Assembly: GCA_029834535.1 (NCBI GenBank) | Contig: JAQMWT010000616.1 | Span: forward strand, 1 to 50,460 | DNA from: Chrysophaeum taylorii | Taxonomy: Eukaryota > Sar > Pelagophyceae > Pelagomonadales > Pelagomonadaceae | Direction: 5' to 3' | DNA length: 50,460 bases | Part shown: piece by piece, positions 1 through 39,000 of the stretch | How the letters are laid out: each line of letters begins with the position of its first letter | How positions within the stretch are numbered: position 1 is the first letter of the stretch | Notes under the pieces: generated by a model | What the model was told of the DNA's origin: nothing | The model's input: only the letters and a program-made list of their open reading frames with translations | Database searches by the model: none | Made by a program: the position numbers and the translations under genes

Positions 1-1715
1 GCAACTGCTGACGAAGAAGGCACCGCGAAAGAGCGACCAGCGTATTTCAATACGTACGACGTTCCGTGGGCGGACGCGCCTCACGACGAACATGGTCAAC
101 CTTCACCGGTGATGCCTACTCATTTAGCGGATCAGGTGAGCATGCAGGTCATCCCTCCGACCGTCGCGCAGGTCGAAGATGTGATGAGTGAATTGAGTAT
201 TACAGAGCATCCTGCCTTAGACGATGACGAGAAGCTGATGATGAAGCAATGAAGCATTTAATCTCGTATTCGTGGGCATTTTTCGATGATGTGATGAGAC
301 CTGTTGATTCACCTGAAGTGACGCTCCGCTTCAAAGAAGAGAACCCGACTCCCGTCAAACTCTCGCCATATCGGTTATCGAAAGAAAAGATTGAATGTTT
401 GCGGATGCAGATTGAAGCATGGACCCGAGACGGAGTTATTCGTCCCGCGAATTCTCCATGGGGTTTCCCTATTTTGATGTTGCCTAAGAAAGGTGCTGAG
501 CCTGGCACTTCCAATGCTTACAGAGCAGCTGTCGACCTACGGCGCCTCAATGCATTGCTCAAGGATGATAGCTGGCCGAGTGTGAGCATGGCTGACGCGT
601 TGATGTTTCTCATTGACAAGTTTTGTCGTTCCAGTTTGGATATTCGTTGGGGCTATCACAATTTACGATTGTCGCTGGATGCACAAGATGTGGTCACCTT
701 CACTAGTCCTCTGGGAGCGTACAGCTACATGCGTCTACCTTTGGGAGTCAAACCAGCCGGAAGTTTGTTTTGCAAGCAGTTGAACACTGACTTGTCGCAA
801 TGGCTATATCGTGATCTCGTGGCATATATCGACGATATTCTCGCCGGTCACGCAGATACAGAGAATCACTTGCAGTGCCTTGTGCAAGTTATTCCCCATC
901 TCGCCTTGAGGGGTACAGCGCCAAGATCAAGAAGATTCATTTTATGCAAGAAGTCATTGAGTTTTTGGGTCATTTATCTACCCCGAACGGACTTCTTCCA
1001 TCACCAAGATCTTTAGAAGCCATCAGACACATGCCAATTCCTGGCACTTTGTCGGATGCTGACCCTAAGAAGCAAGTGCGATCTTTCCTTGGAATGGGGA
1101 GTTTTTGCCGGCGTTATGTAAGGAATTTTGCGAAAGTTGCAGAGCCATTAAGACAACTGACGTTGCCGGACGTGAAATTCAAGTGGACGAAAGAGTGTCA
1201 GGAAGCTTGGGATGCCATCATCGAGGCTATTGTCACTTCGAAGGGCGTCTACCATCCTGATTACTCGTTGCCTTTTTACATTCGAACTGATGCTTCCGCG
1301 CATGGTTTGGGTGCTTACCTATTTCAACGTTGACGACGATGGAAGAGAAATAATCGAAGAGAGAGTTATCGAGTACTGGAGCCGAACCGTGCATAAGTCG
1401 ATGAGGAAGTACGATCCTCGGCGCTTGGAACTCCTCGCAGTACTCTCTGCTCTCGAAAATTTCCGATTTTATATCGAAGGTCATCAGACGAAGTTAGAGA
1501 CGGATCATCGTAATTTAACGTTTCTGCGGGATTCGAATCATACGTCTGGACAGTTAGCACGATGGGCTATGCGGCTTGCTGCGTTCGACCGGGAGCTCGG
1601 ATACAAGCCTGGAAGCTCCCCTGGCATGCGTATTCCGGATTGTCTGTCGCGCAACCCTATCGACAAATTGATCGAGAAAGATGAAGACGGGGAACCGATC
1701 AATGAAGCTTTTTGA
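1..1715 (+). pseudogene. pol: Ty3/gypsy reverse transcriptase-RNase H, frame-broken
   Basis: Reverse transcriptase and RNase H copy the element RNA into DNA inside the virus-like particle. The reading frame runs in frame 1 to about 250, frame 3 to about 905, frame 2 to 1333 and frame 3 to 1715. RT landmarks include the fingers segment with NSPWGFPILMLPKK, the palm segment RLPLGVKPAG, and the catalytic AYIDDI motif near 825-842. The connection and RNase H part carries FLGHLSTP, the acidic RTDASAHGLGAYL segment near 1284-1325, ELLAVLSALENFRFYIEGH, and ETDHRNLTFL. The three frame changes between conserved blocks each fit a single-base indel rather than a regulated shift, so no intact polyprotein can be made. 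The parallel region of the second element (14777-16442) confirms which frame is meant on both sides of each break. Confidence 0.93.
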
Positions 1716-3616
1716 TTTTCCAAGAAATCCCCACCGATGTCCCTGGCACAGCTTGCTTCACCTTCTCTTCGGTGACGATGCCTATGCTGACGGACAGCGG
1801 ACCCACCGCAGCTATGGTAGCAGTTAGTACGCGACAGAACGTACAACCGCCTCAATTCTCGTACGAATCTGAGCCAGTTGACTCCGTCGAACGTCTCCCT
1901 TTTGCGGATCAAGCGGAGGATGAGATCACTCTCGATGAGATAGCGAAAGAACAAGCTGAGGATGAAACATGCAAGCGCATCAGACGAAAGCTCGACTCTG
2001 AACAGAAAGATCAAGACGAGCAGTCATCCGTACCATATGAGATTGATGACAACGTGTTGTATAAGGTCGATGATTCAGCTTCTCAACGTCTTATTGTGGT
2101 CCCTCAGTCTATGCAGAAGCGTGTGGTCGCCATGCATCACCGAGGCTTGTTCGGAGGCCATGTAGGACGAGATTCCACAGCGAATCAAATCTTAGAACGG
2201 TATTGGTGGCCAAACGTCTCATCATCCGTTAATGAGTTCGTCAATGCCTGCATTATTTGCCAGAAGATTCGATCCACCATGCCTAGGCGCCATGGCTTGC
2301 TCTGTCAACCGAATCGCGTCGGAGACTGCTATGTCCTAGGTATGGATTTGATTGGACCTCTGCGAGGCGCTGACCTGTACACGTACATACTCGCAATGTA
2401 CGATGCAGCATCACATTTCTCGAAATTAGCTCTGATCAACACGAAGCATGATTATTCGATTTTGAACGCGTTTGTGGACAAGATTTTACTTGAGGGATGT
2501 CTCCCACAGTGCATAGTAACGGATAATGGAAATGAGTTCGCGAACAGGTTATTTCGCACGTTTGTTCGTCAATTCAACGTACGTTATCGTACTACCCTTC
2601 CGTATCACCCTCAGAGTAATCATACTGAGCGTGTCAATCGATTCATCGAAGCCTTCTTGCGAGCTGCGATCGATGAACAGCGTCAGCCAGATTGGTCGAA
2701 TTTCCTCCCATGTGTGTCATTCATGTACAATAGGATGTACATTCCGGGAACGAAGATTTCACCTTTCATGATGCGTACTGGCAAGCAACCCCTGTTACCA
2801 CCCGATTGCAATCTTTTGAGTGAACAGCGTGATCTACCGCAATCACGTCATCAGATTTTGGTGGATTTTAAGAACAAGTTTGAATTTTATAGTCGACTCG
2901 TTACACGAGCTCACCAGAAAGCACAGGAGAGTCAAAAACTCAACTATGATGCCCACCAAATTGACATCCAGTTTTCCCCAGGTGATTATGTTCTGCGTTT
3001 CGTGCCTAAGACACGCCACAAGCTACGGCCCATTTGGCGCGGACCTTACATGGTTACTAGAAAGATCTCTCCCGTCGTTTATGAAATTCAAGACGTCAAC
3101 GACGATGATGCTGAATCGGTTGTAGTATCTGTACAACAGATTGTGCCTTTGAAAGTGCCAACCATCGACACTTCTTCAGCCCCTCTGCATTTACCCTCGG
3201 ACCGCGACCGGTTCAAACATGGTAAGTTCGTGATTTTCAGGGTGAAAGGACGATCCAACGCTTGGAAGAAGCGTATCTATGTTGCCGAAGTCTACGAAGA
3301 ATATGACCACGAAAATGATACAGTTGCGCTTCACTACTATGCCGATTTGGGACCACGCGATGATCCTCGCGTCTTTGATCCTACTAAGCCTCTGGCTGAG
3401 CGACGCTTAAGACCAGAATACAAAGATCCAGACGGAGGTAGCTTCACACGCCTACGACCAAACATGGAGGGCTGTGAACCCTGTGTGACTGATTTTCGCC
3501 CGGATGAAATCGATGTCCTCGTCACTAACTTCTGTCTCCACAGCAACAAACTTCTTGCTGGTGTAGCTGAACGTGCTTATCGTACCATTCGTGAGCGTGA
3601 CCTTCGTCACCCTTGA
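1712..3616 (+). CDS. pol: Ty3/gypsy integrase with a long C-terminal extension
   Basis: This segment encodes integrase, which inserts the element cDNA into chromosomes. It is open for 634 codons in frame 2 but has no ATG of its own at the left edge, so it would be made as the end of the polyprotein. It contains, in order: a His-His-Cys-Cys zinc finger (HHRGLFGGH, ending ACIICQK, about 2135-2275); the catalytic core with GMDLIGPL, VTDNGNEF and a Glu in HTERVNRF, about 35 residues after the second Asp; and a GPY/F-type module around WRGPYMV (about 3030-3060). A further ~170 residues follow (FKHGKFVIFR, IYVAEVYEEYDHENDTVALHYY, RPEYKDPDG). This last part is conserved in the second element and looks like a small beta-barrel or BAH/chromo-like fold, which is inference. 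Confidence 0.9.
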   Translation: MIFQEIPTDVPGTACFTFSSVTMPMLTDSGPTAAMVAVSTRQNVQPPQFSYESEPVDSVERLPFADQAEDEITLDEIAKEQAEDETCKRIRRKLDSEQKDQDEQSSVPYEIDDNVLYKVDDSASQRLIVVPQSMQKRVVAMHHRGLFGGHVGRDSTANQILERYWWPNVSSSVNEFVNACIICQKIRSTMPRRHGLLCQPNRVGDCYVLGMDLIGPLRGADLYTYILAMYDAASHFSKLALINTKHDYSILNAFVDKILLEGCLPQCIVTDNGNEFANRLFRTFVRQFNVRYRTTLPYHPQSNHTERVNRFIEAFLRAAIDEQRQPDWSNFLPCVSFMYNRMYIPGTKISPFMMRTGKQPLLPPDCNLLSEQRDLPQSRHQILVDFKNKFEFYSRLVTRAHQKAQESQKLNYDAHQIDIQFSPGDYVLRFVPKTRHKLRPIWRGPYMVTRKISPVVYEIQDVNDDDAESVVVSVQQIVPLKVPTIDTSSAPLHLPSDRDRFKHGKFVIFRVKGRSNAWKKRIYVAEVYEEYDHENDTVALHYYADLGPRDDPRVFDPTKPLAERRLRPEYKDPDGGSFTRLRPNMEGCEPCVTDFRPDEIDVLVTNFCLHSNKLLAGVAERAYRTIRERDLRHP

Positions 3617-4771: not shown

Positions 4772-5106
4772 TGTGGTGGCCACTCCCGCCTCCTAAGGCT
4801 TACCCCTCTTCTAGCCCCCCCCCTTATCAGGGGCACCCTACTCCGTCATGATGATGCCAATTTTCTTTATGACATCATCTTCCTTTCCGTGACATGTGTC
4901 ACCCTGATTTCTGTTTTTCGATAATATCTTAATCATAAAGCAACAGCCGATCCTCAAGTTGTGAGGACCAGGCACGGAAGTTGTTTGTGGTTGTGTGGCG
5001 AGAGAACGGCCATCCTCGTCCAGTGACTCCACCAAGGGCACGGACGCGAGCGGCGAGCCAGGATTCGAAGGCACGCCAGGTAGCCCTAAATTAGCCTTAC
5101 GCCACA
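4772..5106 (+). repeat. 5' LTR of element 2
   Basis: It starts TGTGGTGGCCACTCCC and ends TTACGCCACA, about 335 bp. The start matches the TGTGG starts at 3652 and 18290. Shared blocks with the 3' LTR at 18290 (AGGCTTACCCC, AATCATAAAGCAAC, CCTCAAGTTG, the final GCCACA) set its extent. Outside these blocks the two LTRs differ strongly. This argues that they do not come from one insertion event. Confidence 0.75.
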
Positions 5107-5568
5107 GGTGGTGGAGGAATACGAGATTCGAGCGACCATATCGGTCGCAGCGGACGAGTGCATCTTGCATTCTCTACACGGTCCGGACAAGCCGTGCGCG
5201 CCCTGATCAAGCGCGCCGACAAAGAGTTCCAGGAGGACCACTGCCGCGGGAAAGTTCCCCGGCCGGATACGTTAGTCGTCGGAGGTGACGACGCGCGATT
5301 CGGTTCTAGCCGACGCGCAACCCGGGTACCGCTGCCGCAGGCGAGCGGAGTGAGATCGCAACTCACTGAGGCATTGATTGCCGGGCAGAGACGAATTCTG
5401 CCGCCCACCGGACTGATAGATCGGTCGGTGGAAGACGCACGCGACGACGATATTACGCGTGTCGTGGACGAGTAGAAGTCCCAGCGTCGAAGGAGCACGA
5501 GAACGACGACGACTCAACCATTTTGGATCCGCTCTGATCTCGGCCGATTAGAACGAGCCAGAGCCGAT
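5107..5568 (+). other. retrotransposon leader with candidate primer binding site at 5109
   Basis: Two bases after the LTR the sequence TGGTGGAGGAATACGAG begins with TGG, the complement of a tRNA CCA end. GATTCGA, the complement of a T-loop-like TCGAATC, follows at tRNA-like spacing (one base off the canonical count), so this may be the primer binding site. The downstream leader is open in frame 1 from about 5158 to a TAG at 5473 without an ATG, and again from 5476 into gag. It may encode an N-terminal gag extension broken by the TAG, or may be untranslated. Confidence 0.45.
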
Positions 5569-7110
5569 ATGGAAGACGATGATGCTGCCGACGAGCAGAT
5601 GCGATATGACGAACCGCCAAGCCGTCAGGATGAGATGAGCGAGGGGAACGATGATGATGATAACGATGATGAAGAGCACGACACTGAAGGTGACAACGAG
5701 GAAGAAGAGCTAGACTACAACAACGGCGAACCCGCGGAGAGACCGCCGGGAGGACGACCGACAGCTCCGCCAACGCGTGCACGAACCCCGGATGTAACGG
5801 GAATGAATGAGTTCTACGAGGCTCATTTGCGGGCGTTACGCGAAGAGAACGAACGCGCGCAGGAACGACTTTTAAAACAAATAGAAGAAGAGAACGATCG
5901 AAAGGAGCGGCTACAGCGGAAGGAGGCAGAAGAATTACGAGAGCAAGTGCGGAGGGCCAACGCTCGAGCAGATGACCTCCAAGATCAAGTAAATTCGTTG
6001 ACACGAGAAAGAGACGAGTTGTGTACGCCGAGTCGATCGAGGCGAGCGAGCAGCCCGGGGTCCCGAGCTGAGGAAGAGCCGCCAACTACACGATCACGCG
6101 CGAAAGCTAGGAAGCCGCGCTATGAAGACGACGATTACGAAGAAAAGGAGGAGACGCATGGCGACGGAAGAATCGACAACCAAGAGTTCTTGATGGCTTT
6201 CACGGATCGGTTCGCCAGCGCGTTAGCCAAACACGATCGCAACAAGGATCGGCGATCGACCTCCGGATTAAAGACCGAAACTTTTAAACTTGTTCTTGAT
6301 GGACGCGATAAGGACCAGTTCGATTTAGAAGCGGGCGCGGTGATGAGTACGTTAGCCGAAGACCATTTTAGCATGGAGAATCTGCGGTACCTGCTGCCCG
6401 CGAGCCTGCGCGACACAGTCGCACCAATTTTTCGAGAACACTTGAAGAAGTACGAAGACCTGTGTAAGGATCTCGATCACCCAGCGTCTTTTTATTTACG
6501 TCGGGATATCGACGACGAGGAGTATGGTTCAGTGGTACGACGATTACGACGACTGAATGAGAAGTACTGCCTCAAGATTTCAAGATATTTCCGGGAGAGT
6601 TGCCCATTGCCGATGACGGCAGAGGAATCGCTACGGAAACTGCAAGGCACGACCCAAGCGACCGTTCCGAAACGATCGGGGGAACGCCACGTACATACGT
6701 ATTGCATCAAATTTCAGAAAGAGGCCATGGCGTACTGCTCTGTGGCCAACCGAGATCTCAACGACGTAGAGATCATCTCTTACTTGATACGTGGACCGGA
6801 GTCCAGCGAATTGAAATCCCGCGTGCGAACCATGCGCAGCGGGCACCCGACGACGTATAAAACGTTTACGTCTACATTGTCATTGATTACACGGCTCGAT
6901 AACGATTTCGAAACCGCCATGGCGGAGAAGAACAGCCGAAATTCAACGAACCCGTCGGGCGGGAAGCCGCAGAAGCCACCGTCTGGACGCGGAGGACGAG
7001 CGCTCGCCTCCGGAACGAAAGATATAACGACGAAATATGAAGCATTGCGTCTCGAAGAGAATACGAAAAAGTGGTTCGAGAGCACATGCAAGGATTGTGG
7101 GTTTTCTTAA
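5569..7110 (+). CDS. gag: Gag-like protein of element 2
   Basis: This 513-residue frame encodes the structural protein that forms the particle around the element RNA. The N-terminus is acidic and disordered (runs of Asp/Glu, residues 1-75). It is followed by a strong predicted coiled coil (residues ~83-150, EAHLRALREENERAQERLLK onward), a basic Ser/Arg patch, and a predominantly helical region (residues ~230-470) with spacing typical of retrotransposon capsid domains. The start is the first ATG, but the frame is open to 5476, so an upstream start is possible. The frame ends at 7110 in CKDCGFS and continues in the -1 frame, overlapping the next ORF by 40 nt. No Cys-His knuckle is evident before the break. 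Function is inferred from position and composition rather than from a diagnostic motif. Confidence 0.72.
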   Translation: MEDDDAADEQMRYDEPPSRQDEMSEGNDDDDNDDEEHDTEGDNEEEELDYNNGEPAERPPGGRPTAPPTRARTPDVTGMNEFYEAHLRALREENERAQERLLKQIEEENDRKERLQRKEAEELREQVRRANARADDLQDQVNSLTRERDELCTPSRSRRASSPGSRAEEEPPTTRSRAKARKPRYEDDDYEEKEETHGDGRIDNQEFLMAFTDRFASALAKHDRNKDRRSTSGLKTETFKLVLDGRDKDQFDLEAGAVMSTLAEDHFSMENLRYLLPASLRDTVAPIFREHLKKYEDLCKDLDHPASFYLRRDIDDEEYGSVVRRLRRLNEKYCLKISRYFRESCPLPMTAEESLRKLQGTTQATVPKRSGERHVHTYCIKFQKEAMAYCSVANRDLNDVEIISYLIRGPESSELKSRVRTMRSGHPTTYKTFTSTLSLITRLDNDFETAMAEKNSRNSTNPSGGKPQKPPSGRGGRALASGTKDITTKYEALRLEENTKKWFESTCKDCGFS

Positions 7111-9125
7111 CGACCCACGAAAAGGATGAACACGGGAGCCGGGTCATTTGCAACCGCGAGCCCGACGACTATTATGTGGCGATGTGTAAGTACATCGAAG
7201 ACGGCAAAACGCCCATCTCTCGGGGACGATGGGAGAGCCGACAAAAGAAAGATAATCATTCGCGTGACGACGGCAGTTCCAATGCCAACCTCGGTTCGAG
7301 CGCCGCTCACGATATTCAGAGCAGACTCAACGATATGGGCACGCAGCTGACCACGGTTATGGATTCCGTGACGCACTTGACAGATGGACACGGCCGATCG
7401 TCTTCGACACGACCGGGCCGTCGAGATAGCCGGAGCCCCCGACGCCGCGACAAGAGCCGTAGCAGCTCGCGCCCGCGCCGACGGAAAGACAGCCGGAGCT
7501 CTAGCAGACATTCACGGCGCCGCCGGCGACGAAGATCTCGCGATCGAAATTCGGACGATGGTCGTTACCGGGAAGACTCGGGACCTTCGTCTGCAACGTT
7601 CGCGTTCACGACCCCTTGCGGTCAACAGTTACCATTAGGAGTGATGGTGTACCCGAACACGGACACCAGCACCGACGACGTAGCCGACGCCCTTGCCGCG
7701 GCCGCATTCGACGATCTTGCTCGCCCGCCGACGGACGAGCCACCCAACGACGTGCTGACCGATCGTCGGTCTTTGGCACAGATTTATGAGGAGATGTCGA
7801 GCGATGAACTCGAAGATTCGAGCGACGACCTCGAAGCTCGACGATACTGGGAAGGCGATTCAGATTCGGAAGATGAAGAAGCTACACCTTGTGAGCCAGT
7901 GTCCGCGATAACATTACTTGACGAGTCGTCCACGGACGACGCCCCGTTTGTTCTTGGCGAGGAAGCCCTCGACGCCATCGGCTTATCTTTAAACCCTCCA
8001 GGGACGACCTTTGGCGACCGAACTGGCTGTGAGCCAGACAAGGATTTCTGCAGTGATAGCTCGTGTGATCATTCGCCGGACGAGACGAGGACCATCGCGA
8101 GTGATGCAGACGACGATCTTACGATAGAGTTGACGTCGGGGACGACGCCATCTTTTCCTGCAGACCCCCCCCCCGAAACGGTTTCGGTTACGACGGATCG
8201 AGCCACGGACACGCCGCCGGAAGAAAAGGATAGATTTAAGAAGAAGATTCGCAGCGTTCTCGAAGGGGACGAAGACGAGCCAACGTGGAACCTGCAGGAT
8301 TGGTGGACGAGAACTCGGAGCTTCTTGCTAAAAAAGCCACCAGAACAACCGCTCAGCTACGGACTCGAAGCCGCAGCCGACACGGAACCGATCGCCGATG
8401 ATGGTGATGATCAACCAACGACGAATGAATCTACGGATGCATTCTGGAAAGACGAAATGAATGAGTTATGGGGGAGGTCCTTTGCTTCAGAGAATAACGA
8501 AGATCGGGATCCCCTACCAGCACTGATTCCCTCCGAGATTGTCTTGGAGGAAGAGCGAAAGCCGCCAGATAAAGAGACTGCCGCGAACGCTGCGTCGATG
8601 GCGCCGACATTAGACGATACGAAAGCTCAAGCCGCGGTATCGATGCCCAACCCCGGGGATGAGCGAGTCAGAGCCCAATGTGCTCATACTGCGTTGACGC
8701 CGCGAGACGGCAAGACGATCGAAGATGATTTGGTTACCCTGAGTTGTTTGGATACGGGTACTCTTACGTTTATGGCCTGTCACATCTACAGGAATCGTGA
8801 CCGACCGAAATTCTCGACGACCATGGGTGTCGATGGAATGGCAGATGTCTCTTATATTTGCCGAGAAATGGTCAGAAAGTTGGCCAAAGATAAGTTGATT
8901 TTCGATGAAGGCGAACTTCCGATTAAGCGCAAGCTGTACGGATCGGGGTTGAATACGATGACGATCTTTCGTTGGATCGCGATCCGGGTCGCTCTCGCCG
9001 ACAACATCGCCGCCCCCATTGTCGCTATTGTGGCCGATACGAACTATCTGTTCCTGTTGGGAGGGCGCGATATACGAGTTTTAGGAGCCGTCGTGGATTA
9101 CCCCCACGATCGGATCTGTTTTTAT
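7071..9125 (+). CDS. Gag C-terminal region and aspartic protease of element 2
   Basis: This continues gag in the -1 frame. Residues 1-110 follow on from gag. An Arg/Ser-rich tract (about 7390-7560, SRSPRRRDKSRSSSRPRRRK) could bind RNA. A long acidic low-complexity region (7650-8680) follows. The retropepsin domain (about 8700-9115) includes the catalytic LDTG triad motif (CLDTGTLTFM), the flap-side GVDGMADVSYICREMV, and the C-terminal FLLGGRDIRVLGAVVDYP, which matches the usual ILGxDFL..GAVxD block. The protease cuts the polyprotein. The frame is cut after RICFYQ by the hAT terminus at 9126; the open frame read through to 9302 is hAT sequence. RT and integrase of this element are absent. Confidence 0.8.
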
Positions 9126-12026: not shown

Positions 12027-13271
12027 ATGAGTCAGCTCTCTGTACTGTCGCCGCGTGATGGGAAAACGATCGAGGAAGACCTCGTTACCATCGGCTGTCT
12101 GGACACGGGCACGCTGACGTTCATGGTTGGACATATTTATAAATGACGAGACGGGCCAAAATTCGCAACGACCATTGGTGTTGATGGAATGGCCGATGTC
12201 TCCTATATTTGCCGCGAGATGGTCGCCAGGTTGGCGAAGGACAAGATAATCTTCGACCAAGGCGAACTCCCAGTCGAGCGCACCCTGTATGGGTCGGGGT
12301 TGCATACGACGAGTATCCACAAATGGGTCGCGTTGCGAATTGCTCTTGCGGACGACGTTGCAGTCCCGTTGGTGGCCATCGTGGCTGATACGAATCATTC
12401 ATTCTTACTGGGAGCGCGCGACATTCGAGTGCTGGGAGCCGTGGTGGACTACCCGCACAATCGCATTGCGCTTCACCGCACGCAAATCGCATATGGGCGC
12501 AAATGGTTAAAGGTGCAGGATCAACGAGTCGATTCCCCTGTCCTGACGTTCAGATCAACTTACGAGCGCAACCCCGTGGTAGTTCCGATTTACGGCCACC
12601 AGCACCCCGCGATGAGGCAGAGCCTGAACACGATCGAGGATCGAGCTTTCGCTCGCTTGTGCACGATCATAGACCCCCAGCGTCTCTACCCAGGTCGTCG
12701 AGCGGTAGCTTCGACGACCTGGGAAGTCTCGACCGCTACTCCTTCTCGAGTGTCGACCAGCGCTGCCGATGAAGTGGTTGCCTACGCTGCGCGCACGATG
12801 AAGGTCGAGCTTGGACGCACTTACAGCGTACCAGTCACCCTTTCGGAGCCCTTTGAAGACGGGCAAGTTTTTGATGCTACATCCTCTGGATACGAGCAGC
12901 TCGGGGTAGTCGATGAAATGTGTTCTTCTAGCGAGGATCACGACAAGTCCGCCGCTCGCGTGGCATTGTCATCCACCCAAGATGTGCCGACCGTGATTAC
13001 TCTAGGTGAAGTGCTCGCCCTCGGCGATATTATTCGCCACGAGGACGAGTTGAACGTCTCTACGGTCGAAGAGTTAACGAAGGACTGTGAAGCAACCTAC
13101 GATAAGGCAGACCCGTCGTTCACTGTTTCGGTCACAAGCCATATGACGCAATGCAACGCAGCCCCCTCACCGATGCTTTTGAGCTCGATACAAAATACGA
13201 CCCACTCCGCCGAAAAGGACGTGACCTCCCGTCAAAGATCGCTTGGCAACGATGATTTCGACCGACGATAA
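12027..13271 (+). pseudogene. Aspartic protease and linker of element 3
   Basis: This is a second copy of the protease region, homologous to 8690-9115. It includes CLDTGTLTFM with the catalytic DTG, GVDGMADVSYICREMV, and FLLGARDIRVLGAVVDYP. A TGA at 12144-12146 interrupts it where element 2 has a sense codon (HIYRN against HIYK-stop). The frame then stays open for 360 codons from 12189. After the protease (to about 12490) comes a ~250-residue linker of no recognised family, ending at an in-frame TAA at 13269-13271. The same frame reopens immediately and leads into the methyltransferase, so the TAA is probably a nonsense mutation in one polyprotein. Homology to element 2 reaches almost back to the hAT edge at 11984. 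Confidence 0.8.
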
Positions 13272-14199
13272 GAAATTAAGTGCCGAGAGGCTACGGAAGG
13301 CGAGATTCGCCGAGGATATGAAAAAGCTCAATGGCTGCCGATCACGTATCGCAAGGTTGTGATGCTATTCAGCGGCGCCGGAGGCAGCACTTTAGGGCTG
13401 CAACGAGCGAGCGAGATGTGCGGGACGTCGTTTCGAGTCGTCCTCGCCCTTGACTCTTCAGAAGCTGCCAACAAGATCCATCATAAAAATTTTCCGATGG
13501 TGCCTGTGGTTCAGCACACGCTCTGTGGACGCTATTCAACGACTCTGCGATTGATAAAGGCCTATTTGCCCGAAGCGGAATGGTCATTGTCGATGTGCAT
13601 CGCGTCCGCGCCCTGCGTTCATTCAGCACTTGTAATTGACGTCCAGAGATGTCGGCAAGGGAGTTTCGGCCACTCATTGGACGATGAAGCTGCGCAAAAG
13701 AGCTGGCTTCATAATGTGGCTGATTGAACAGGAGGCTTCGATTATTTCTTACGTTGCGCGTTTACACCCTTACGTGTGCGTCGTCAATTTTCGCGACATT
13801 ACGCCCAATTTGATGAGCTGTCGCGTGCTATTGTTGGTCTCTAGTCACCCGCTGCACCTGCGAGAAGCTCCCAAAACTTGTGCAAATGTGCGCCAAAAAT
13901 TTGCTGCAGACTTAGGTTATGAAGATGACGAAACCCTGCTCCTGCTGAACAATTTAGGCTCGTCCCGAGACGCTACGGATACGGTTTACACCGTCACGCG
14001 AGTTCCTCTTCGCATAGGACCGCACCTTTCGGATACTCAGCCTTTGACTCTCAAAATGACCGCAGAGTTGGTCACGATGCCGTTTGATTATGATTGGGCC
14101 GGCCTGTCTAGGACAGCTTCGTTCAAGCACTTGGCGTCCATCGTGCCCCCATACACTCTTGCGATTTTAGCACTCGATCTGCACAACTCCGTGACCTGA
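13272..14199 (+). pseudogene. Cytosine-C5 DNA methyltransferase domain inside the retrotransposon
   Basis: C5 methyltransferases transfer a methyl group from S-adenosylmethionine to cytosine in DNA. In frame 3 I see motif I LFSGAGGSTLGL (13365-13400), motif II VVLALDSSEAANKIHHKNFP, and catalytic motif IV ASAPCVHS with the Pro-Cys at 13611-13616. The Gln usual after Cys is Val here. The frame changes to frame 1 somewhere between about 13640 and 13727. There, LHPYVCVVNFRDI (13768-13800) matches motif VI, but the Glu of ENV is missing. QPLTLKMTAELVTMPFDYDW matches motif IX, and SFKHLASIVPPYTLAILALD (about 14122-14180) matches motif X, the G-N-x-VPP block. Order, spacing and ~300-residue length fit a complete but decayed domain. 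It lies between protease and RT, both in the same orientation. Confidence 0.83.
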
Positions 14200-14761
14200 G
14201 ATTTCCGCCAAAGCGGCGAAGTCTTACCGACCGCGTTGAGCCTTACAGATCGACCGTCTGAGCAGTATCTGCGAATTTCCGACACCACCCTTCGTCACGT
14301 ACAGGTTCCGCTGTTGAATACGCGCACCGTGTCGTTAAGTGGGTGACAACAACAGATCTAAAGGATCGCACCAAATGGAAATCGCCAGAAGTATCTTTGC
14401 TTCCGCTTCCAACAGATGCGCCAGGGACGGCTCATACTTCGTTTGCTGCCCCCCCCCCCGACAACCAAAATTGAACGTTCCGCCGGATCCTGAACCTGAT
14501 CGGGAGCCGAAAGTGAGGAGCGAACCGAGCGTGCGCGTTAAAGGTGAAAAGATTAATAAGAACCAGCCTGACGTGAGATTCAAATACGAAGAAAAGTTCG
14601 ATGTGTCGTGGAAGGATGGACCGCGCGATGCGGACGGAGCGCCGCTAGCGCAGACTCCAGAGCACGTCAAGGATAACGAAGCGATGAAAGTCAAAATTCC
14701 GACGAAAGAAGAAGTCGAGATAGTCGTGCAGGAACTGGGAATACCCGACAATCCGCATTGA
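14200..14761 (+). pseudogene. Polyprotein linker between methyltransferase and reverse transcriptase
   Basis: After a TGA at 14197-14199 the methyltransferase frame reopens and runs to a TGA at 14341-14343 (EVLPTALSLTDRPSEQYLRI). A shifted frame (14339-14761) then leads towards RT with a Pro-rich stretch, PPDPEPDREPK, and EEVEIVVQELGIPDNPH. That end aligns with the segment before RT in element 1 (VEDVMSELSITEHPALDDDE). An in-frame TGA at 14759-14761 separates it from the RT frame. No catalytic motif is visible. It reads as connecting sequence of one long polyprotein. Confidence 0.6.
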
Positions 14762-14776
14762 GATGAAGATGCGAAT

Positions 14777-16442
14777 ATGATGTTAAGCCACTGCGTGCAA
14801 TACGCGTGGGCCTTTTTTGACCCGATTATGAGACCCGTGGACTCGCCGCCGGTTTCTCTGCGATTTAAAGACGCAAACCCACGACCGATCAAGATGACAC
14901 CTTACCTGACGCCAGCAAAGCTCGATTGTTTCAGAAAGCAGATCACCGAGTGGTGTCGCGATGGAGTCATCCGACCGGCGAACTCTCCGTGGGGATTTCC
15001 CGTGCTGATGCTGCCCAAGAAAGGAGCAGAGATCGGGACGTCAAATGCTTTTCGTGCTGCAATTGACTTACGTCAGCACAACGATCAGCTGGTCAATGAT
15101 AGCTGGCCGAACATTCGTCAAAATGATGCTTTGGCTTTCCTTGCCATGCGCCGTTGGCGGACGTGCATTGATATTCGGTGGAGATACCACAACCTGCGTT
15201 TGGACACCGCCGCTCACGACGCTATCACGATGGTTGGCCCACTCGGAGCACACAGTTTCTTGCGCTTGCCTCTGGGAGTGAAAACAGCAGGAGCTCTCTT
15301 CTGCAAGCAGATGGCCAGCGATTTGTCGAAATGGATGTACAAGGACTTGGTCGCGTGTGTCGACGACATTATGATGGGATCGGGCGACCACCATCGTCAC
15401 TTACAAGTCTTGATTGAAGTACTGTGCCACCTAGCACAAAGAGGATATAGTGGACGAACAGCAAAGTTTCATCTCCTCAAAGATGATATCAAGTTTCTGG
15501 GACATGTTTCGACTCCGGAAGGCTTAAAGCCGAATCCTAACACGTTGGAAGCCTTGCAGCAGGTGCCGATTCCCGGAACTCTGCCGAATACGTCTCCGAA
15601 GACCCAGATTCGATCTTTCATCGGCATGAGCAACTATTGCCGCCGATATATGGGGAATTATTCGAAGATTGTGGAACCGTTGAGACGGTTGTGTCTCGAA
15701 GGTGTCACGTTCAAGTGGACGCCCGAATGCCGAAAGGCTTGGGACACGATCATCGAAGCTTTAGTGGATTCTCGCGGAGTCTACCACCCAGACTACGATC
15801 ATCCCTTCCAGATCCGCTCGGATGCCTCTAAAGATGGTCTGGGCGCGTCTTTTCCAACTCGTGGAAGTCAAAGACGACACCGGAAAGGTAACACGAGAGG
15901 AGCGAGTGATTTAGAATTGGAGCCGAGCTGTGCCGAAGGAGATGCGGAACTACGAGCCCCGTCGGCTGGAGCTACTGGCAGTTATTGTCTCCCTCGAACA
16001 TTTTCGCTCTTATATTGAAGGGCATAAAACGGTCCTCGAGACGGATCACCGCAACCTGACGTTTCTGCGGAAGGCGACGCACTCATCTGGGCAACTGGCT
16101 CGATGGGCGATGCGACTTGCCAACTTTGATCCTGAACTGGGCTACAAACCAGGGAAGTCACCGGGAATGAGTATCCCTGACTGCCTCTCTCGCAATCCTA
16201 TCGATCACGTCATCGAGACGGATGAGTTTGGTGAGCCCTTGAATCACGCTTACTTGGCGTGCCAAGAACTTCCTCGGCCCATTGATGACGAAGTAGTACC
16301 ACTAGCTGGATGCCATATCATCTTGTCGTTTATCACGACTGAGTTGCCTGAAGAAGAAGAAGAAGATTGTCGCGATGATCCAATGCAGTTGGCTACGTCT
16401 CACGCTACGAGGCAACGTCAGAAAACTCGTCTGCGATCCTAA
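14777..16442 (+). pseudogene. pol: Reverse transcriptase-RNase H of element 3, frameshifted
   Basis: Frame 2 is open for 413 codons with RT blocks NSPWGFPVLMLPKKGAE, RLPLGVKTAG, the catalytic ACVDDIMMG, KFLGHVSTPEG and MSNYCRRYMGNYSKIVEP. The residue before Val-Asp-Asp is Cys where most RTs have Tyr or Phe (element 1 has YIDD). The RNase H part begins at IRSDASKDGLGA; the frame breaks near 15850 and continues in frame 3 (ELLAVIVSLEHFRSYIEGHK, ETDHRNLTFLRKATHSSGQL) to 16442. Element 1 shares almost every conserved block, so the two are close relatives within one Ty3/gypsy clade. Confidence 0.92.
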
Positions 16443-18436
16443 CCGAGTATTTTCCGAGACGCTGATGATTACCAAGAGTACATCGACAAGATCCCGGATA
16501 ATTTGACTTTGGAAGAGACGGCCAAAGACCAGACCACTGACGCCACTTACGAGGACATCCGTTATCGCATTGCTCAGGGCCATTCTCTTCGCCGGTACGG
16601 AGCTAACACTCGCTTCCAAGTTGTGAAGGGAGTCCTCTAATGTGCCGCCCCCGATTTGCACCCGATGATAGTCGCTCCCCAGACATTACGGACGCGCATC
16701 ATCCGACTTTACCATGACACCCCTCTCAGCGGTGGTCACGTGGGTCGTCACAGTACGGTGCAATCGACACTTGAACGTTTTTGGTGGCCTCACATGTCTA
16801 ACGAAGTGGGCATCTATATTGCTGGCTGTTTGGTGAGTTAGAAAGCTCGCACGCCAGAACCCAAGAGAGCTGGTCTCCTTCAATAGCCCGTGTACGATGG
16901 CGATTGTGCTGTTCTCTGCGTGGACTTGTTGGACCTTTGCCCAGTGCTGGTCCAGAGATGTATCTCATTGTGTTTTTCGATCCATTTTTTCATTTCTTGA
17001 TTCTCGACGTGCTTCACAACAAGACTGCTGAGTCGATCCTCGAGTCATTCGTGGCGAACATATTGCTCACGGGGTATTTACCTATGATGATTCGTACCGA
17101 CAATGGTAAAGATTTCGTCAACAAATTGATGGAAGAGTTTTGTCGTCTCTTCAACACTAGGTATAGTACTACGATTCCGCATCATGCCACTAGGTATAGT
17201 TCTACGATTCCGCATCATGCCCAGGCAAATCCGGATGAACGGGTCAACCGCTTTATCAAGGCCTTTCTCCGTGCGTGTCTTCAAGAGAGAAACACCACGG
17301 ACTGGCCGGATTTTGCAGAGTACATCGCATTTTGCTACAATCGCAAGTTCATTCCGGGTACACAGATCTCCCCGTTTATGCTTTGTCTCAATCGTCAGCC
17401 TCTGTTGCCCACCGATTATACGATCATGGATCTCGACACCCGACGCATGCCGAAAACTCGTTCTGATGTTGTGTCCGAGTCTCGCGAGAAATTGAAATTC
17501 TACACCGCAACGGTGAATGAAGCTCGTGAGAAGGCTCTCAAGAAGCAAAGACTCGCTTACAATGCTGACCATGTCGATGTTGAGTACGAGGAAGGATCGC
17601 ATGTTTTGCGCTACATTCCTTTTCTTCAGAACAAGCTTCAACCACAATGGCGCGGCCTGTTTATTATCGTGGAACGCCTGTCTCCGGTCACTTATAGGAT
17701 TGAGTCTCTCGACTCTCCGCCCGAACGGCGTTGTGTTCATGTTAGTCAGATCACCCCTGTGATGGTTTCTCCAGTGGTCGATCGAGCCGTGCCTAAGCCC
17801 AAGGAGACCTTCCGAGACGATTTTAAGCACGGTAAGTTTGTTATCTTTCGGATCCCCGATCGCAAACGGTCTGATCGGCGGAAGAAGATTTACGTTGCTG
17901 AAGTTTATGAACCTTATGATTACGCGAACGATCGAGTAGCCCTTCATTTCTACCCTGATCTCGGTCCGGATGACAAGATTTCTTACTACAAGCCAACCTC
18001 ACATCTCTCTACTCGCAAGCTCAAGCCGGAGTACAAGGACGTGGACGGTCGCAGTTTCACCGATAAGTCCAAGGTCACCAACAGTACCACTCCCTGTGCC
18101 ACCGACTTCGCTCCGCGCGAGATCGATGTGTTGATTCCCAAATTTACCTTGCGCAGTGGACGCGTTCCTGAACCCGTCATCACGCGCGTCTACAAGAAAA
18201 TCCGTTCAAGAGATGCTCAACCAGCCAAGGCTCGTGATTCTCGCCGGGCCACTCGCCGAGGGCAGCTCATATTCTCACTAGGGGAGTCCTGTGGCAGCAA
18301 CTCCTGCTCCCTGAGGCTTACCCCGCTTCTCAAGTCTTTGCCCGCGTTCAACGGGACGCCTTTCCCCCTTTTCCTTATGATGTCAAGTGATGTCATTCTG
18401 CTTACGTCACATTGTTTTCTCTGTCAAGAATCATAA
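16443..18436 (+). pseudogene. pol: Integrase of element 3, broken N-terminus
   Basis: Fragments at 16443-16900 carry the zinc-finger part (RLYHDTPLSGGHVGRHSTV, LERFWWPHMSNEVG), but one Cys of the HHCC set is lost (AGCLVS then a stop), and several stops and shifts follow. From 16904 the frame is open for 510 codons: catalytic core with IRTDNGKDF and the Glu in PDERVNRF, a GPY/F-like WRGLFIIVERLSPVTYRI, and the same ~170-residue C-terminal extension as element 1 (FKHGKFVIFRIPDRK, IYVAEVYEPYDYANDRVALH, KPEYKDVDG). An 11-codon tandem duplication separates the second Asp and the Glu. The frame runs without a stop into the 3' LTR, ending at 18436, whereas element 1 stops 35 nt before its LTR. Confidence 0.88.
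17156..17221 (+). repeat. 33-bp tandem duplication inside the integrase core
   Basis: Two 33-bp copies (ACTAGGTATAGTACTACG..., ACTAGGTATAGTTCTACG...) lie head to tail at 17156-17188 and 17189-17221, differing at one base. They encode TRYSTTIPHHA then TRYSSTIPHHA. Element 1 has a single copy of this stretch (VRYRTTLPYHP). The duplication keeps frame but lengthens the spacing between catalytic Asp and Glu. Confidence 0.9.
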
Positions 18437-18604
18437 AGCAACTGTCAGCCTCAAGTTGAGAGGCTTGGCGCGAGCGTGAACAAGTTTGTGGCGACGCGTA
18501 GCCGGCCCCCAAGCCCGGGCCTACCTTGAGTGTGGAGTTCTCCGGCGTGTTGGTGAGTGCCCCCAGTGTCCCCCAGGGTCGGAAACGTTTATACTGCCGC
18601 CACA
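18290..18604 (+). repeat. 3' LTR of element 3
   Basis: It begins TGTGGCAGCAACTCC after the purine tract CACTAGGGGAGTCC (18276-18289) and ends ACTGCCGCCACA. The end was set by analogy with TTACGCCACA of the LTR at 4772. It shares AGGCTTACCCC, AATCATAAAGCAAC and GCCTCAAGTTGAGAGGC-like blocks with that LTR but is otherwise strongly diverged and about 20 bp shorter. Confidence 0.7.
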
Positions 18605-18760
18605 GTGGGGTTTAGGAGTGAACTCAAAGCTTAGCGAACGTGCGCTGGTCAAAGCAGCTTAGATTGGCGGGGGTGAGAGCGTCGAGCTGAAATGGGAGTG
18701 GGTGTGGGTGTCAAGGCGTTAGTCTAACCGTCCAGGCGCCGCCAGGGACCGTGGGATTAG
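18605..18760 (+). repeat. repeat family D / Helitron subterminal relative
   Basis: GGGGTTTAGGAGTGAACTC, CAAAGCAGCTTAGATTGG and the following GA-rich stretch match the internal 3' part of the ~1.05-kb Helitron-type units (for example 35776-35850). The next part (CGCCAGGGACCGTGGG) matches 29400-29430 instead. A second and third copy of this mosaic are at about 28970-29100 and 29247-29430. It is non-coding. Confidence 0.5.
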
Positions 18761-34930: not shown

Positions 34931-36026
34931 TCTTAACTACTAATCGACAGATGTTTGTCTGTCTGTCTGTTTGTCTGTTTGTTTGTTTGTCCCTCGATTT
35001 AGGGTAAGGATCAGGTAGGCGCGAGAGTAAGGATCAGGTAGGCGCGAGAGCCAGACAGTGATCCTCCAAGCCGTCTACGGCGACCTCGCAGACTATTTCC
35101 ACGACCCGCGGCGGCTCTTTCAGCGCGCCATTCTCACGCCCCGTCGAAACGATGTTGTCGATGCTGACAACGCGCGCATGACCGCGGCCTTTTTTTCCCG
35201 GAGACGAGGCGTCGGAGTTCTTTTCGGCTGACTAGGCTGGGTCGGAAGACGACGCCTCGCTCTTTACAGTAGAGTTTTCAACTCCCTGACAACCAACGGC
35301 ATGCTGACTTTGATCGCGAGCTTAAAGTCTTCGCAACCTCGACCCGTCGCACGGCCACTGCAACGGTACCAGATACATGATCGATCGTGTCGTTGTCACC
35401 GAGGCTCCTCCAACCTGTATCCCTTAAGGCCCGCCGACGCCAAACGATCAACAAGAGCCAGGGCCAGACGCCCCGCGAGGTCGGCGTCCTCTCGCCCAAG
35501 CCCGTCTTCTGTCACGTCCAGCTCTACGTGGCTCTCTGTCGATCGGCAACCCCGAGGATATGCTCTTCTGAGTCGACGACTCCACCCTACCCCACACGTG
35601 CTGCGCAATACCGACAAGCCCCCTCCCGGCGTCTACACGCGCACTATAGGTTAACTTACTGGGACCAGGTGAACTCACTGGAACCAGGTGAACTTACTGG
35701 GGTTAGAGATTGGGACTAGGTGAACTTAGTGACCAGGTGAACTTACTGAGACCAAGTGTGAACTTACTGGGGCTTTAGAGTAAACTCAAAGCTTAGCGGC
35801 GTGTGCGGATCAAAGCAGCTTAGATTGGCGGGGGTGAGCGCGACGAGCTCGAAGGAGAGTGGGGTGAGTGGGTGCGGGTTTACGCCGAACTTACTGGGGT
35901 TAGAGATTGGGTTTACGCCGAATTTACTGGGGTTAGAGATTGGGACTAGGTGAACTTACTGGGACCAGGTGTAAACTTACTAGGGTTGGAGATTGGGACT
36001 AGGTGAACTTACTGGCCTGCACTTGT
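34931..36026 (+). mobile_element. Helitron-type unit G, next to the FKGP gene
   Basis: Third plus-strand unit. 5' end TCTTAACTACTAATCGACAG, abutting the GCACTTG of unit F. The 3' repeat region has an extra GGTTTACGCCGAA-containing module and ends GGCCTGCACTTG at 36025. The next 70 bp lead to the ATG of the FKGP gene, so regulatory DNA of that gene must overlap or lie within this unit unless its promoter is very short. Confidence 0.8.
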
Positions 36027-36095
36027 AGACTCCTTAACCTTAACCTTGGGTGTCTAGACTCGAAAAATAGTCGAAAAAAACGGCTGAAGAAGAAT

Positions 36096-39000
36096 ATGCG
36101 GAGGAGGGTGGCCGTGGTGGTGACCGCGGCCAACGAGGATCAGGCGTCGGCGTTTCGGCAGGAGCTGGGCGAGCGTGATCTAGGGGAGGGGTGGTTGTGG
36201 ATGTCGGTGAGCGACCCCGCGGGCGCTCGCATCGGGAGCGGCGGCGGGACGCTGAATGCGTTGACGGCCGTCGACCGCGAGCTGCCAAAGGGGTGGGTAG
36301 AAGAGACGCTGGTGGTGATCATCCACTCGGGCGGTGACTCGCGGCGGTCGCCGTCGCAGTCGGTGTGCGGCAAGGCGTGGTCGAAGCTGCCGCGGGTGGT
36401 CGACGGCAAGTTGTCGGCTCCGTTCGACCTTTTGCTCGAACAGCTGCTGGCGCTGTGCGGAGATTCTCCGGTGGGGTGCGTGGTCGCGTGCTCGGACGTG
36501 CTGCTAGTGCTGCCGGAGATCGGGACGCTCGCGGGACCGGGGGCGACGGGGCTCGCGATCCGCGCGCCGCTCGAGTACGGTCCCGAGCACGGCGTATACG
36601 CGATCAGAGACGGCGAGGTGAGATCCTTTCTCCAGAAGGCGTCGGTGCCCGCGCTGCGGGCCGCTGGGGCCGTCGAGGACGACGAGAGGGTATTGCTGGA
36701 CTCGGGGGTTGTATTTTTTGATTCGAAAACGACGGCGACCATGACGTCGCTGGGACGTTCGTCGCTCCGGGACGCGACGAGCCTCGGAAACGGATCGCTC
36801 CGCGTCGAGCTCTATTCGGACGTGCTGCGGGCGTTTCGGGGGGGGGGGTTCGAGAGCTTTGAGGAGTACGAGGCGATGCCCGCCGACGACCCCGAACCCC
36901 ACAGGTTCCGACGGGTTTTGTGGGATGCGCTGCACGAAACGACGCTCCGCGCGCACGTTCCGGCGGGCGCCGACTTCCGTCATTTGGGTACGACGCGCGA
37001 GTACGTCGAGTTGATGAGGGAACCCGCGATGCGGCGGGTGCTGGGGCTCCGGCGGCGCGCGAAGTGTGAGGTGGACCCGGACCTCGGGGAGGGTGTGGTC
37101 CTGAACTCGATCGTGCGCGGGACACACCTCGGGGTCGATTCGGTCGTCGAGCACTCGGAGCTCGAGTCGGGGTCCGTAATCGGGCCTCGATCTCTGTGTT
37201 CGTGCGTGCGCGGCGAGGTCCGCCTGGGGGCCGATTTGATGATCCAGATGCTTCCGCTCCTCGACGGCCGCTTCGTGTGCGTCCTGTTTGGGATGGACGA
37301 CGACATGAAAAGTGCGGCGACGTTTCTCAACGAGCCGACGTTGGTCGCGTCCCTGTGGACGGCCAAGCTCTTCAAGCCGCGCGACACTCCCGAGGCCGCG
37401 TTGGAGGCGGCCATGCGCCTCCAGCATCATCATCATCATCTTGAAGAAGAAGAAGAAGAAGAAGAAGAAGGGTCGCTCTCGATGGCCGAGGTCGTGCGGC
37501 TGGCAGACAAGAGGGCGGATTTTGCTTGGCGACGAGCGCTCGAACGTCGCGCGGTAGCCGACTGGGCGAAGGTCGTGGTTACGCAGGAGGACGAGAGCGC
37601 CGCAGTTTCCGCGCTGCTGGAAATCGCCGAGGAGCCGACGCTTTTGGTCGTATCGGTGGCGGGTTCGGTTCTAGCGCGCGACCGCATCCCACCGCAGGAC
37701 TCTGGCGTGTGGGTCTACGTCGGCGGCTGCGACCCGAGCGATTCCGACGTCCGCCGGCTAGGCGCTGCTGCTGTTGGTGCGCCGATCGCCCGCCTCGAGG
37801 ACACCGGCCTCGCGCGGTTCGACCTGGCGGTCCTCGCGAAGATCAACAAGGGGTCGTTCGCCGAGATCCTCCGCGACGCGGTGGTCGTCCCTTCCGATCG
37901 CGGCCGACGCGAGATTCCGTTTTTCGACGACCTCTACGCGGCGTCGCCCGCTGCCATCTACGAGGGAAAAGTCGTCGAAATGTGCGTGCTCGAGGGCTGC
38001 GAGGTTGCGGGCTCGGCGGCCTACTGCGACCTCGTCGACTCGGAGATTGGCGCGGGCGCCGTCGCCTACGGCCTTTCCGGCGGAGGTGTTATCGTGCCTC
38101 CTCGGAGCCACGCGCAACGTCTCTTCCTCGAGGGCGGCGCGTCGGTCGTCCTGGTCAAGAAGGCCTCGGACCGCCTCGATGAGGCCTTATTCTTTGGGAA
38201 ACCCCTCGCCGACCTCTTCGACCCCGAGGCCCTCTGGCCCGAAAGGGAGCAAAGGTGTCTCGCGACGGCTCGACTCTTCGTAATCCGAGACGACGACGAC
38301 GGCTCGACGACGACGATGATGATGCCCTCGGCGTCGGCCGCGTGGCGCGCCGCGCGCCGCACCTCGATATTGGAGGCGCTACGGTGCGTCGACACGGCCG
38401 CGATGCGCGCGTGGAGGGAAGAGGTCGTCGCGAGCGCTGTCTGCGCTTCGATCGGCAGCGGCGGCAACATCCTGGCCGAGGTTTCGCCCCGCCACAAGGA
38501 CCGCGTCGCGGCGGCCTTAGAAGGCCTCGCGTCTACGGGGGACCTCGTTGTCGCCGCGAGGGCCCTGAGCCAGGTGGCTTTCATTTTCCACGCCCCCCCC
38601 GGCGGCGGACAAGGACAAGGACAAGGACAAGGAGAAGGACAAGGACAAGGACAAGGCGGCCGAGAGTTCTTCTTGTTGGATCGCGACGACGACGACGACG
38701 ACGACGTTCGGGAAATGACCGGCGCGCTCGCGGACGCGAGGCGCGCGCGCGGTGGCTCTGCGGTGCGCCACTACTACGAGGCGGCCGCCCGGGCCCTCGT
38801 GAGGCGCGCCGTCGCGCTCAGCTTCCCGCGACGATATCGCCGCCCCCCCCACAACAACAACAACCACCACCACCACAACCACAACCGAGGCGTTCGCGCG
38901 ACGGCGCCGGCGCGCGTCGACCTCGGCGGCGGCTGGACCGACACGCCGCCCATCACCTACGAGCTCGGCGGGGCCGTAGTGAACCTCGCCGTCCGGCTCG

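Follow-up and report, generated by a model that had tools for sequence, protein, structure and literature searches.

The stretch of DNA considered here (the window) is contig JAQMWT010000616.1 of the pelagophyte Chrysophaeum taylorii (assembly GCA_029834535.1; 50,460 nucleotides, forward strand; contig C616 in the genome searches), and between positions 13,272 and 14,199 it holds the remnant of a cytosine-C5 methyltransferase (C5-MTase) domain within the coding region of a Ty3/gypsy retrotransposon. Hosts silence transposons by cytosine methylation, and an element-borne C5-MTase is therefore a paradox. Why should a parasite carry the enzyme that lays down its host's silencing mark? A C5-MTase is defined by motif I, the catalytic Cys of a Pro-Cys pair (PC), the Glu of motif VI, the Arg of motif VIII and motifs IX-X, in that order, and the remnant has the following features.

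13272..13631, forward strand: N-terminal half of the C5-MTase, motifs I-IV; frame still open, PF00145 match below the cut-off
13356..13397, forward strand: motif I, VVMLFSGAGGSTLG, from the translation; the equivalent in relatives aligns to C5-MTase motif I
13611..13616, forward strand: Pro-Cys of motif IV, reading ASAPC (ASPPC in open relatives), from the translation
13636..14199, forward strand: C-terminal half of the C5-MTase, motifs VI-X, in a different frame from the N-terminal half, from the translation
13717..13746, forward strand: motif VI, WLIEQEASII, which aligns with the ENV of known C5-MTases (hhalign)
13816..13845, forward strand: motif VIII, SCRVLLLVSS, from the translation; open relatives read CRVRLLVSS or SRVRLLVSS
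14041..14169, forward strand: motifs IX and X, PLTLKMTAELVTMPFDYDW ... HLASIVPPYTLAIL, from the translation; the homologous stretch of a relative (L054) matches PF00145 positions 257-319

A preliminary description of this stretch had reported the motifs in this order, and both the translation and the alignment of relatives bear it out. The domain is indeed present, but the coding is broken, with an in-frame stop (13269-13271) just 5' of the domain, a frame shift between 13631 and 13636, more frame changes ahead of the reverse transcriptase (RT), and the loss of one Arg, the second of motif VIII. Motif VI keeps its Glu, with the canonical ENV replaced by EQE, motif IX occupies 14041-14097 and motif X (HLASIVPP) 14128-14169. 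The names given to motifs I-X in the window copy, motif I being what we take to be the S-adenosylmethionine (SAM) binding motif, follow general knowledge of the enzyme class, and their placement is supported by aligning relatives with hhalign, well for I-VIII but weakly for IX-X. When two open pieces (13272-13724 and 13636-14196) were translated and then scanned against Pfam, the first matched PF00145 at E=3.2e-4 (20.7 bits, residues 28-83, profile positions 2-51 only), below the 22-bit cut-off, and the second, scanned alone, matched no Pfam family. Against the corresponding domain of L041, a relative with an open frame, the product of 13272..13631 is 84% identical over 120 residues and that of 13636-14235 is 74.5% identical. 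Judged from sequence, the window copy on its own leaves the C5-MTase claim weak, and it is the relatives that secure it. A copy that is broken and below the Pfam cut-off might in isolation be a passenger or an artefact, that is, a chance-caught host gene fragment, a chimeric assembly or a chance motif match, an explanation to which the wider family leaves hardly any credibility.

The domain across the genome

The genome searched comprises 70.8 Mb in 697 contigs. A search with the first MTase piece yielded 916 candidates at a first look, of which 150 were scored, among them the window copy itself. Every one of the 150 is related, at 68-100% identity; 145 rows are stop-free over the aligned segment, in most cases 121 residues long, and over 30 places lie within open frames of at least 1,000 amino acids. 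At the DNA level, window positions 13000-14999 match 40 places (window included) at 83-100%, together with one 40-base fragment, and the MTase DNA of L041 matches 40 scored places at 97-100% identity (of 398 candidates, itself included). The L041 frame (2,941 amino acids in the locus) has the Pfam order MTase, RVT_1, RNase H, H2C2, rve. Its domain alone scores 26.3 bits against PF00145 (E=6.4e-6), above the cut-off, and within the long frame 19.1 bits, below it, as is also the case for L042 (20.9 bits within its long frame). The element lies on contig C5 between identical direct long terminal repeats (LTRs) of 302 bp (520077-520378 and 530029-530330), an insertion of 10,254 bp with a 3,067-amino-acid frame, which must be recent because its two LTRs are identical. 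In a second copy on the same contig the repeats lie at 554078-554379 (100% identity to the LTR query) and 544139-544439 (98%). The direct LTRs are taken from one element examined in full, the window element having only a probable remnant of its 3' LTR. Intact full-length relatives, for which the preliminary description had proposed a search, are thus present as two open frames of 3,067 and 3,063 amino acids, one of them with identical 302-bp LTRs.

Selection on the domain was gauged from the ratio of nonsynonymous to synonymous substitution (dN/dS) in six open copies, a choice that biases toward low ratios. Between subfamily A (five copies) and subfamily B (one copy) the ratio is 0.045-0.055 at dS 1.8-2.2, a rough figure because dS is near saturation, and within subfamily A it is 0.12-0.34. 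The gypsy MTase domain is therefore under purifying selection among open copies, in a family that is abundant and recently mobile.

The constancy of the domain's position was measured on subsets of the matches (115 rows of 151 protease matches, 110 of 150 MTase rows and 57 of 150 RT rows). In 66 of 67 protease-MTase pairs the spacing is 1,213-1,243 bases, and 52 of 56 protease-RT pairs lie 2.8-3.05 kb apart, enough room for the MTase domain; 19 of these 56 have no MTase row in the subset, and 18 of the 19 are still at least 2.8 kb apart. The polyprotein order is an upstream gag-type part, the protease-like region, the C5-MTase, RT, RNase H and integrase, with the 302-bp LTRs outside, and the MTase slot is common to subfamilies A and B and to the one family-C copy read. 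Relatives lacking the domain at this position, which would have spoken against the preliminary description, have a single candidate among the pairs in the subsets. This copy, G000:C119:3538-6201, has a protease-RT distance of 1,911 rather than the usual ~2,940 bases, about 1 kb shorter; the spacing fits loss of the domain and makes it a candidate natural MTase-less derivative.

The same spacing allowed a prediction. From L041, the position of an MTase was predicted in a family-C relative on contig C225, whose RT is 83% identical to that of the element at the left end of the window, and 1,001 bases were fetched. The predicted site (L054) is a single open frame whose product shares 41% identity with the L041 domain across 299 columns, so that the domain predicted blind from position alone was found. 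PF00145 matches L054 at E=2.4e-9 (37.5 bits) in two stretches, of which the better is profile 257-319, the motif IX-X end. The DNA_methylase match that the preliminary description had named as its check is thus significant in the relatives (L054 and the L041 domain), although the window piece stays below the cut-off. The SAM motif (GAGGS.LG.QR), ASPPC, EQE, R.RLL and VPP are identical between families A and C. A chance or artefact origin is accordingly rejected: the same slot recurs in A, B and the family-C copy, with near-constant spacing and on many contigs, dN/dS is well below 1, the family is large, and the hhalign match described below is accompanied by controls that fail.

The rest of the window element follows the order RVT_1, RNase H, rve, which is the Ty3/gypsy order (Pfam).

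12045..12500, forward strand: protease-like region with an LDTG motif; motif and position only
14453..16018, forward strand: RVT_1 and start of RNase H (RVT_1 E=1.3e-9, RT_RNaseH_2 E=1.8e-9)
15915..16442, forward strand: RNase H (RT_RNaseH, PF17917 E=5e-17)
16802..18436, forward strand: integrase (rve, PF00665 E=4e-7; Integrase_p58_C, PF22938 E=1.1e-6)
18290..18608, forward strand: probable 3' LTR remnant (genome repeat and match to the L041 LTR)

The domain had been described as lying between protease and RT. The RT is confirmed by its RVT_1 match, and positions 14453-15847 are 88% identical to L041; the protease is identified by an LDTG-type motif and position only, with no match in the Pfam scan. 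A tblastn match with L041 (amino acid 1009 onward) begins at 12045, and the own-genome search matched 12048-12500 at 73% with one TGA within. The window rve scores 30.7 bits, just below its 32.6 cut-off. Positions 18300-18608 are repeated across the genome at 77-86%, and 18290-18330 (41 bp) are 85% identical to the beginning of the L041 LTR.

Other gypsy sequences lie to the left. Positions 43-3253 carry RT and integrase, the 3' portion of an element from a third gypsy family; its RT is 62-63% identical to that of L041. Positions 4772-9122 comprise a subfamily-A 5' LTR, leader and gag-protease part (4772-5475 at 91% to L041), which breaks off at 9122, before the subfamily-B element is reached, and is possibly a truncated element or a nested or chimeric insertion. 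To the right, a 1,322-amino-acid open frame (36003-39971) that combines a fucose pyrophosphorylase with a GHMP kinase domain, of the bifunctional fucose salvage enzyme type, is apparently a host gene within GC-rich DNA, and many short tandem arrays of AGTAAGTTCACCTGGTCCC-like units occur in both orientations at 24.8-36 kb and 46-48 kb.

Affinities of the gypsy methyltransferase

What kind of C5-MTase is this? A profile of families A, B and C together with one metagenome relative (P0007) was compared by hhalign with ten C5-MTase references, namely eight phage or plasmid enzymes and the host's own DNA methyltransferases (DNMTs), DNMT2 and DNMT5. The profile aligns over motifs I-VIII (98.0%, E=1.6e-13), where EQE falls on ENV and SPPC on its counterpart SPPC; a second alignment, at motifs IX-X, is weak (E=0.011, 3.8%); the reversed profile gives E=0.9 and the best of 30 column shuffles 0.18. 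The ordered motif set of C5-MTases is thus present in the gypsy alignment, with EQE for ENV at motif VI, and ASPPC is invariant in the alignment of the copies. That a C5-MTase lies inside a Ty3/gypsy polyprotein in a further host lineage, as first proposed for this window, is upheld by the profile matches, the 150 scored places and this alignment with its controls.

Against single enzymes, the profile matches archaeal, actinobacterial and cyanophage MTases at E=2.3e-10 to 2.8e-9 and the other phage or plasmid enzymes less well (two at ~1e-6, two at 1.5e-5 and vir335 at 0.13), compared with 77.7% and E=1.9e-5 for host DNMT2 and E=0.35 for host DNMT5. An origin from host DNMT5 or DNMT2 is not supported in this comparison, where the closest similarity lies elsewhere, five of the eight phage or plasmid enzymes scoring above DNMT2 and two more about level with it. 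These eight were picked because permissive searches with the gypsy or copia domain had hit them, and the set is without Dnmt1, Dnmt3 and Dnmt6; because of this bias the claim is limited to the gypsy MTase appearing nearer to some prokaryotic-type C5-MTases than to host DNMT5. In agreement with a prokaryotic-type affinity are matches to the PHROGs DNA methyltransferase profile (L054, E=4.3e-11) and the PADLOC cytosine MTase profile (L054, E=2.3e-11; L041, 6.5e-10). With permissive tblastn, all five plasmid records matched are annotated methyltransferase, as are 20 of the 25 listed phage records (of 95), the others being hypothetical or unannotated, with many near-duplicates and most at E >1.

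A search of 5.8 billion proteins with the A+B+C profile found one relative, the 322-amino-acid JGI metagenome protein P0007 on a 2.6-kb contig, whose motif VI reads LEQVPGV. Neither the gypsy nor the copia MTase profile (see below) found relatives in IMG/VR, each searched with only two peptide patterns, and on that evidence a viral source of the element MTases is rejected. In a PDB profile search up to E=10 no Dnmt3-named chain was among the matches; the best were insignificant ones to tRNA-C38 methyltransferase/DNMT2 (E=0.12 and 0.13).

These last matches, the hhalign score to host DNMT2 and the lack of a CpG footprint on DNA (see below) would suit an RNA methyltransferase, with a DNMT2-like use in which the element's genomic RNA or primer tRNA, not DNA, is the target. 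This is unlikely: relative to DNMT2, three of the eight phage or plasmid DNA C5-MTases match clearly better, two better and two alike, with one giving no match, albeit in a set chosen from hits and so biased. Equally doubtful is a catalytically dead domain retained in the polyprotein for a structural or nucleic-acid-binding role. Such a loss could account for PPCV in place of PPCQ and EQE in place of ENV in open A and B copies, and for the short motif VIII-IX region of gypsy copies, but the SAM motif, the ASPPC Cys, the motif VI Glu, the motif VIII Arg pair and the motif X VPP are the same in families A and C despite 41% identity.

Copia-borne and cellular methyltransferases

An own-genome search with PF00145 gave 57 matches (123 scored of 474 candidates), two of which are cellular: a DNMT2-like protein on C634 (PDB 1g55, E=3.9e-39) and a DNMT5-like protein on C621 (PDB 7r76, E=2.8e-261) that has an SNF2 domain, the entry 7r76, named Rad8, being presumably Cryptococcus Dnmt5. 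Of the other 55 places, 27 distinct ones were read; a further cellular enzyme may lie among the remaining 28. All 27 are one MTase type, borne by a Ty1/copia family (on C96, C314 and C582 among other contigs), and the seven copia open reading frames scanned all exceed the PF00145 cut-off. RVT_2, the copia-type RT, is reached in two of the seven frames (E=1.6e-38 and 9.5e-28), the other five stopping earlier; the MTase lies upstream of it in the same frame, and in one frame a weak rve match lies between the two (E=0.0061, or 6.8e-4 for the piece alone, both below cut-off). No convincing LTRs were found within the fetched 10-kb loci. The copia motifs look canonical (LPCQ, ENVPPNP), dN/dS among ten stop-free ungapped copies is 0.09-0.29, which indicates purifying selection, and hhalign to the references gives 96.5% and E=9.9e-10 (best of 30 shuffles 0.086, reversed 0.51).

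A common origin of the gypsy and copia MTases is not supported: the two give no mutual alignment by BLASTP or hhalign, even if each can be aligned with the shared C5-MTase references, and a very deep common origin may still lie behind them. Two retroelement superfamilies in one genome thus carry different predicted C5-MTases, each in a polyprotein upstream of RT, and the separate copia-borne enzyme argues that MTase activity is useful to the elements.

In fungi DNMT5 acts as a maintenance-type enzyme, and the substrate of DNMT2 is tRNA. Because the only cellular C5-MTases seen are DNMT5 and DNMT2, while gypsy and copia each carry a selected C5-MTase, it is conceivable, as a speculative extension, that retrotransposons supply the de novo cytosine methylation of this genome: element enzymes would lay down the mark, host DNMT5 would maintain it, and parasite and host would jointly run the system. 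The small set of host DNMTs detected is in any case a favourable setting for testing self-methylation. The genome also holds 84 chlorophyll a/b-binding domain matches, many of the same score and adjacent (C88, C539, C390), which suggests that the organism is photosynthetic and that its antenna proteins have multiplied; together with DNMT5 they point, on sequence grounds, to an alga and perhaps to a pelagophyte of the Aureococcus kind.

Possible roles and known systems

The window copy is probably, with moderate confidence, the remnant of a C5-MTase that forms a regular and selected part of a large Ty3/gypsy polyprotein and by which new copies would be marked. The identity, placement and abundance of the domain, the recent insertion of another copy and the purifying selection are observed; self-methylation is what they are taken to point to. 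The MTase domain would be packaged with RT inside the virus-like particle, where it could methylate cytosines of the new cDNA, or it could act on the DNA at insertion, so that the new copy would arrive in the genome already marked. Such a premade mark might let the copy escape recognition as foreign DNA, keep it quiet and tolerated, or alter chromatin at the insertion site, and host DNMT5 might then copy the mark.

A number of observations weigh against this scheme. The domain scores 18.5 bits on the NCBIfam dcm model against a cut-off of 100.65, the A+B profile found no relatives among the 5.8 billion proteins, P0007 has no Pfam match, and a protein search with the copia MTase profile likewise found no relatives. 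In open A and B copies motif IV lacks the usual Gln and motif VI departs from ENV, as noted above. The window copy is itself broken, and of 11 further domain copies fetched four are open throughout and seven have stops or frame changes. CpG is not depleted (observed/expected 0.98-1.30 for gypsy loci and 1.20 for the window element, compared with 1.32 for host genes). Nor was any excess of CG-to-TG/CA change found (ratios 0.73 and 0.95 for gypsy and 1.00 for copia; single window pairs 0.62 to 1.14; close copia pairs 1.05, with third positions 1.14). TpG+CpA is 0.95-1.24 in element copies versus 0.75 in the window's host genes, A+T content also being higher in the elements. No CpG-decay footprint in the element copies thus emerges from either the CpG ratios or the CG-to-TG/CA counts. 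The missing footprint weighs against a simple heritable CG mark. It would also fit an enzyme that targets cytosines outside CG, a mark that is only transient, or an organism with low deamination.

The MTase might instead be aimed at others, such as host silencing genes, DNA viruses or competing elements, rather than at the element's own DNA. An antiviral role of transposon methylases is proposed in a passage of PMC6338049, and the presence in one genome of two element superfamilies with mutually non-aligning MTases could be read in this way; the position in the polyprotein would rather suggest action in the particle, and the idea seems decidedly improbable. Marking of the element's own copies is the reading that this genome would allow to be tested on young copies, since it offers 150 scored related places, a recent insertion, deeply diverged subfamilies, a candidate MTase-less derivative and a second superfamily.

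Element-borne DNMTs as such are known. The account in PMC5890265 (de Mendoza et al.), which covers 96 genomes, describes DNMT-bearing DIRS, LINE and Gypsy elements from dinoflagellates and a charophyte; the enzyme of a DIRS element is reported there to methylate CG de novo, and for DIRS elements packaging with RT and methylation of cDNA are proposed. The nearest counterpart is KnitGypsy-Dnmt3 of Klebsormidium nitens, which, as described in that paper, is likewise an intronless C5-MTase within a Gypsy Pol polyprotein, under purifying selection (Ka/Ks <0.2) as was also measured here. There the domain is of the Dnmt3 clade, the repeats are DIRS-like and the copies are fewer than those of the Symbiodinium elements; here the enzyme appears nearer to some prokaryotic or phage C5-MTases than to host enzymes, in a comparison with references lacking Dnmt3, the one element examined in full has two direct 302-bp LTRs, and there are 150 scored related places. 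The SymbioDIRS-Dnmt3 and SymbioLINE-Dnmt elements of Symbiodinium, in the same source, are again very many element-borne C5-MTases in an alga, although of other classes (DIRS with a tyrosine recombinase, and LINE), SymbioLINE-Dnmt belonging to an orphan DNMT lineage. Symbiodinium Copia elements are stated in the relevant part of PMC5890265 to be without a DNMT domain, unlike the copia family here.

Other methylation enzymes of eukaryotic transposons, from the portions of PMC6338049 and PMC12477816 that deal with them, are adenine MTases of the DAM type in DIRS elements and a ParB-MTase gene in a Sola transposon from Ectocarpus, which are directed at adenine or N4-cytosine and occur in other element classes, as opposed to the C5-MTases here. 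Prokaryotic and phage Dcm-like C5-MTases are stand-alone genes and not polyprotein domains. Among them, ATW59271 of Aphanizomenon phage vB_AphaS-CL131 aligns by hhalign over 263 columns (profile 75-353 on residues 6-323, E=2.8e-9) and has the best E among the listed phage tblastn matches (1e-3), where no more than 29% of the query is covered, at 33% identity. An opinion paper (PMC6338049) names stramenopiles, in its passage on hosts, among those of DAM- or DCM-bearing elements, the kind being unspecified, so that such elements may have been seen before in this host group. Among the matches listed from the open-licence PMC literature there was no C5-MTase in a Ty1/copia element. What is new relative to the known systems is thus one more host, a gypsy lineage whose enzyme looks different, and an apparently unreported copia capture.
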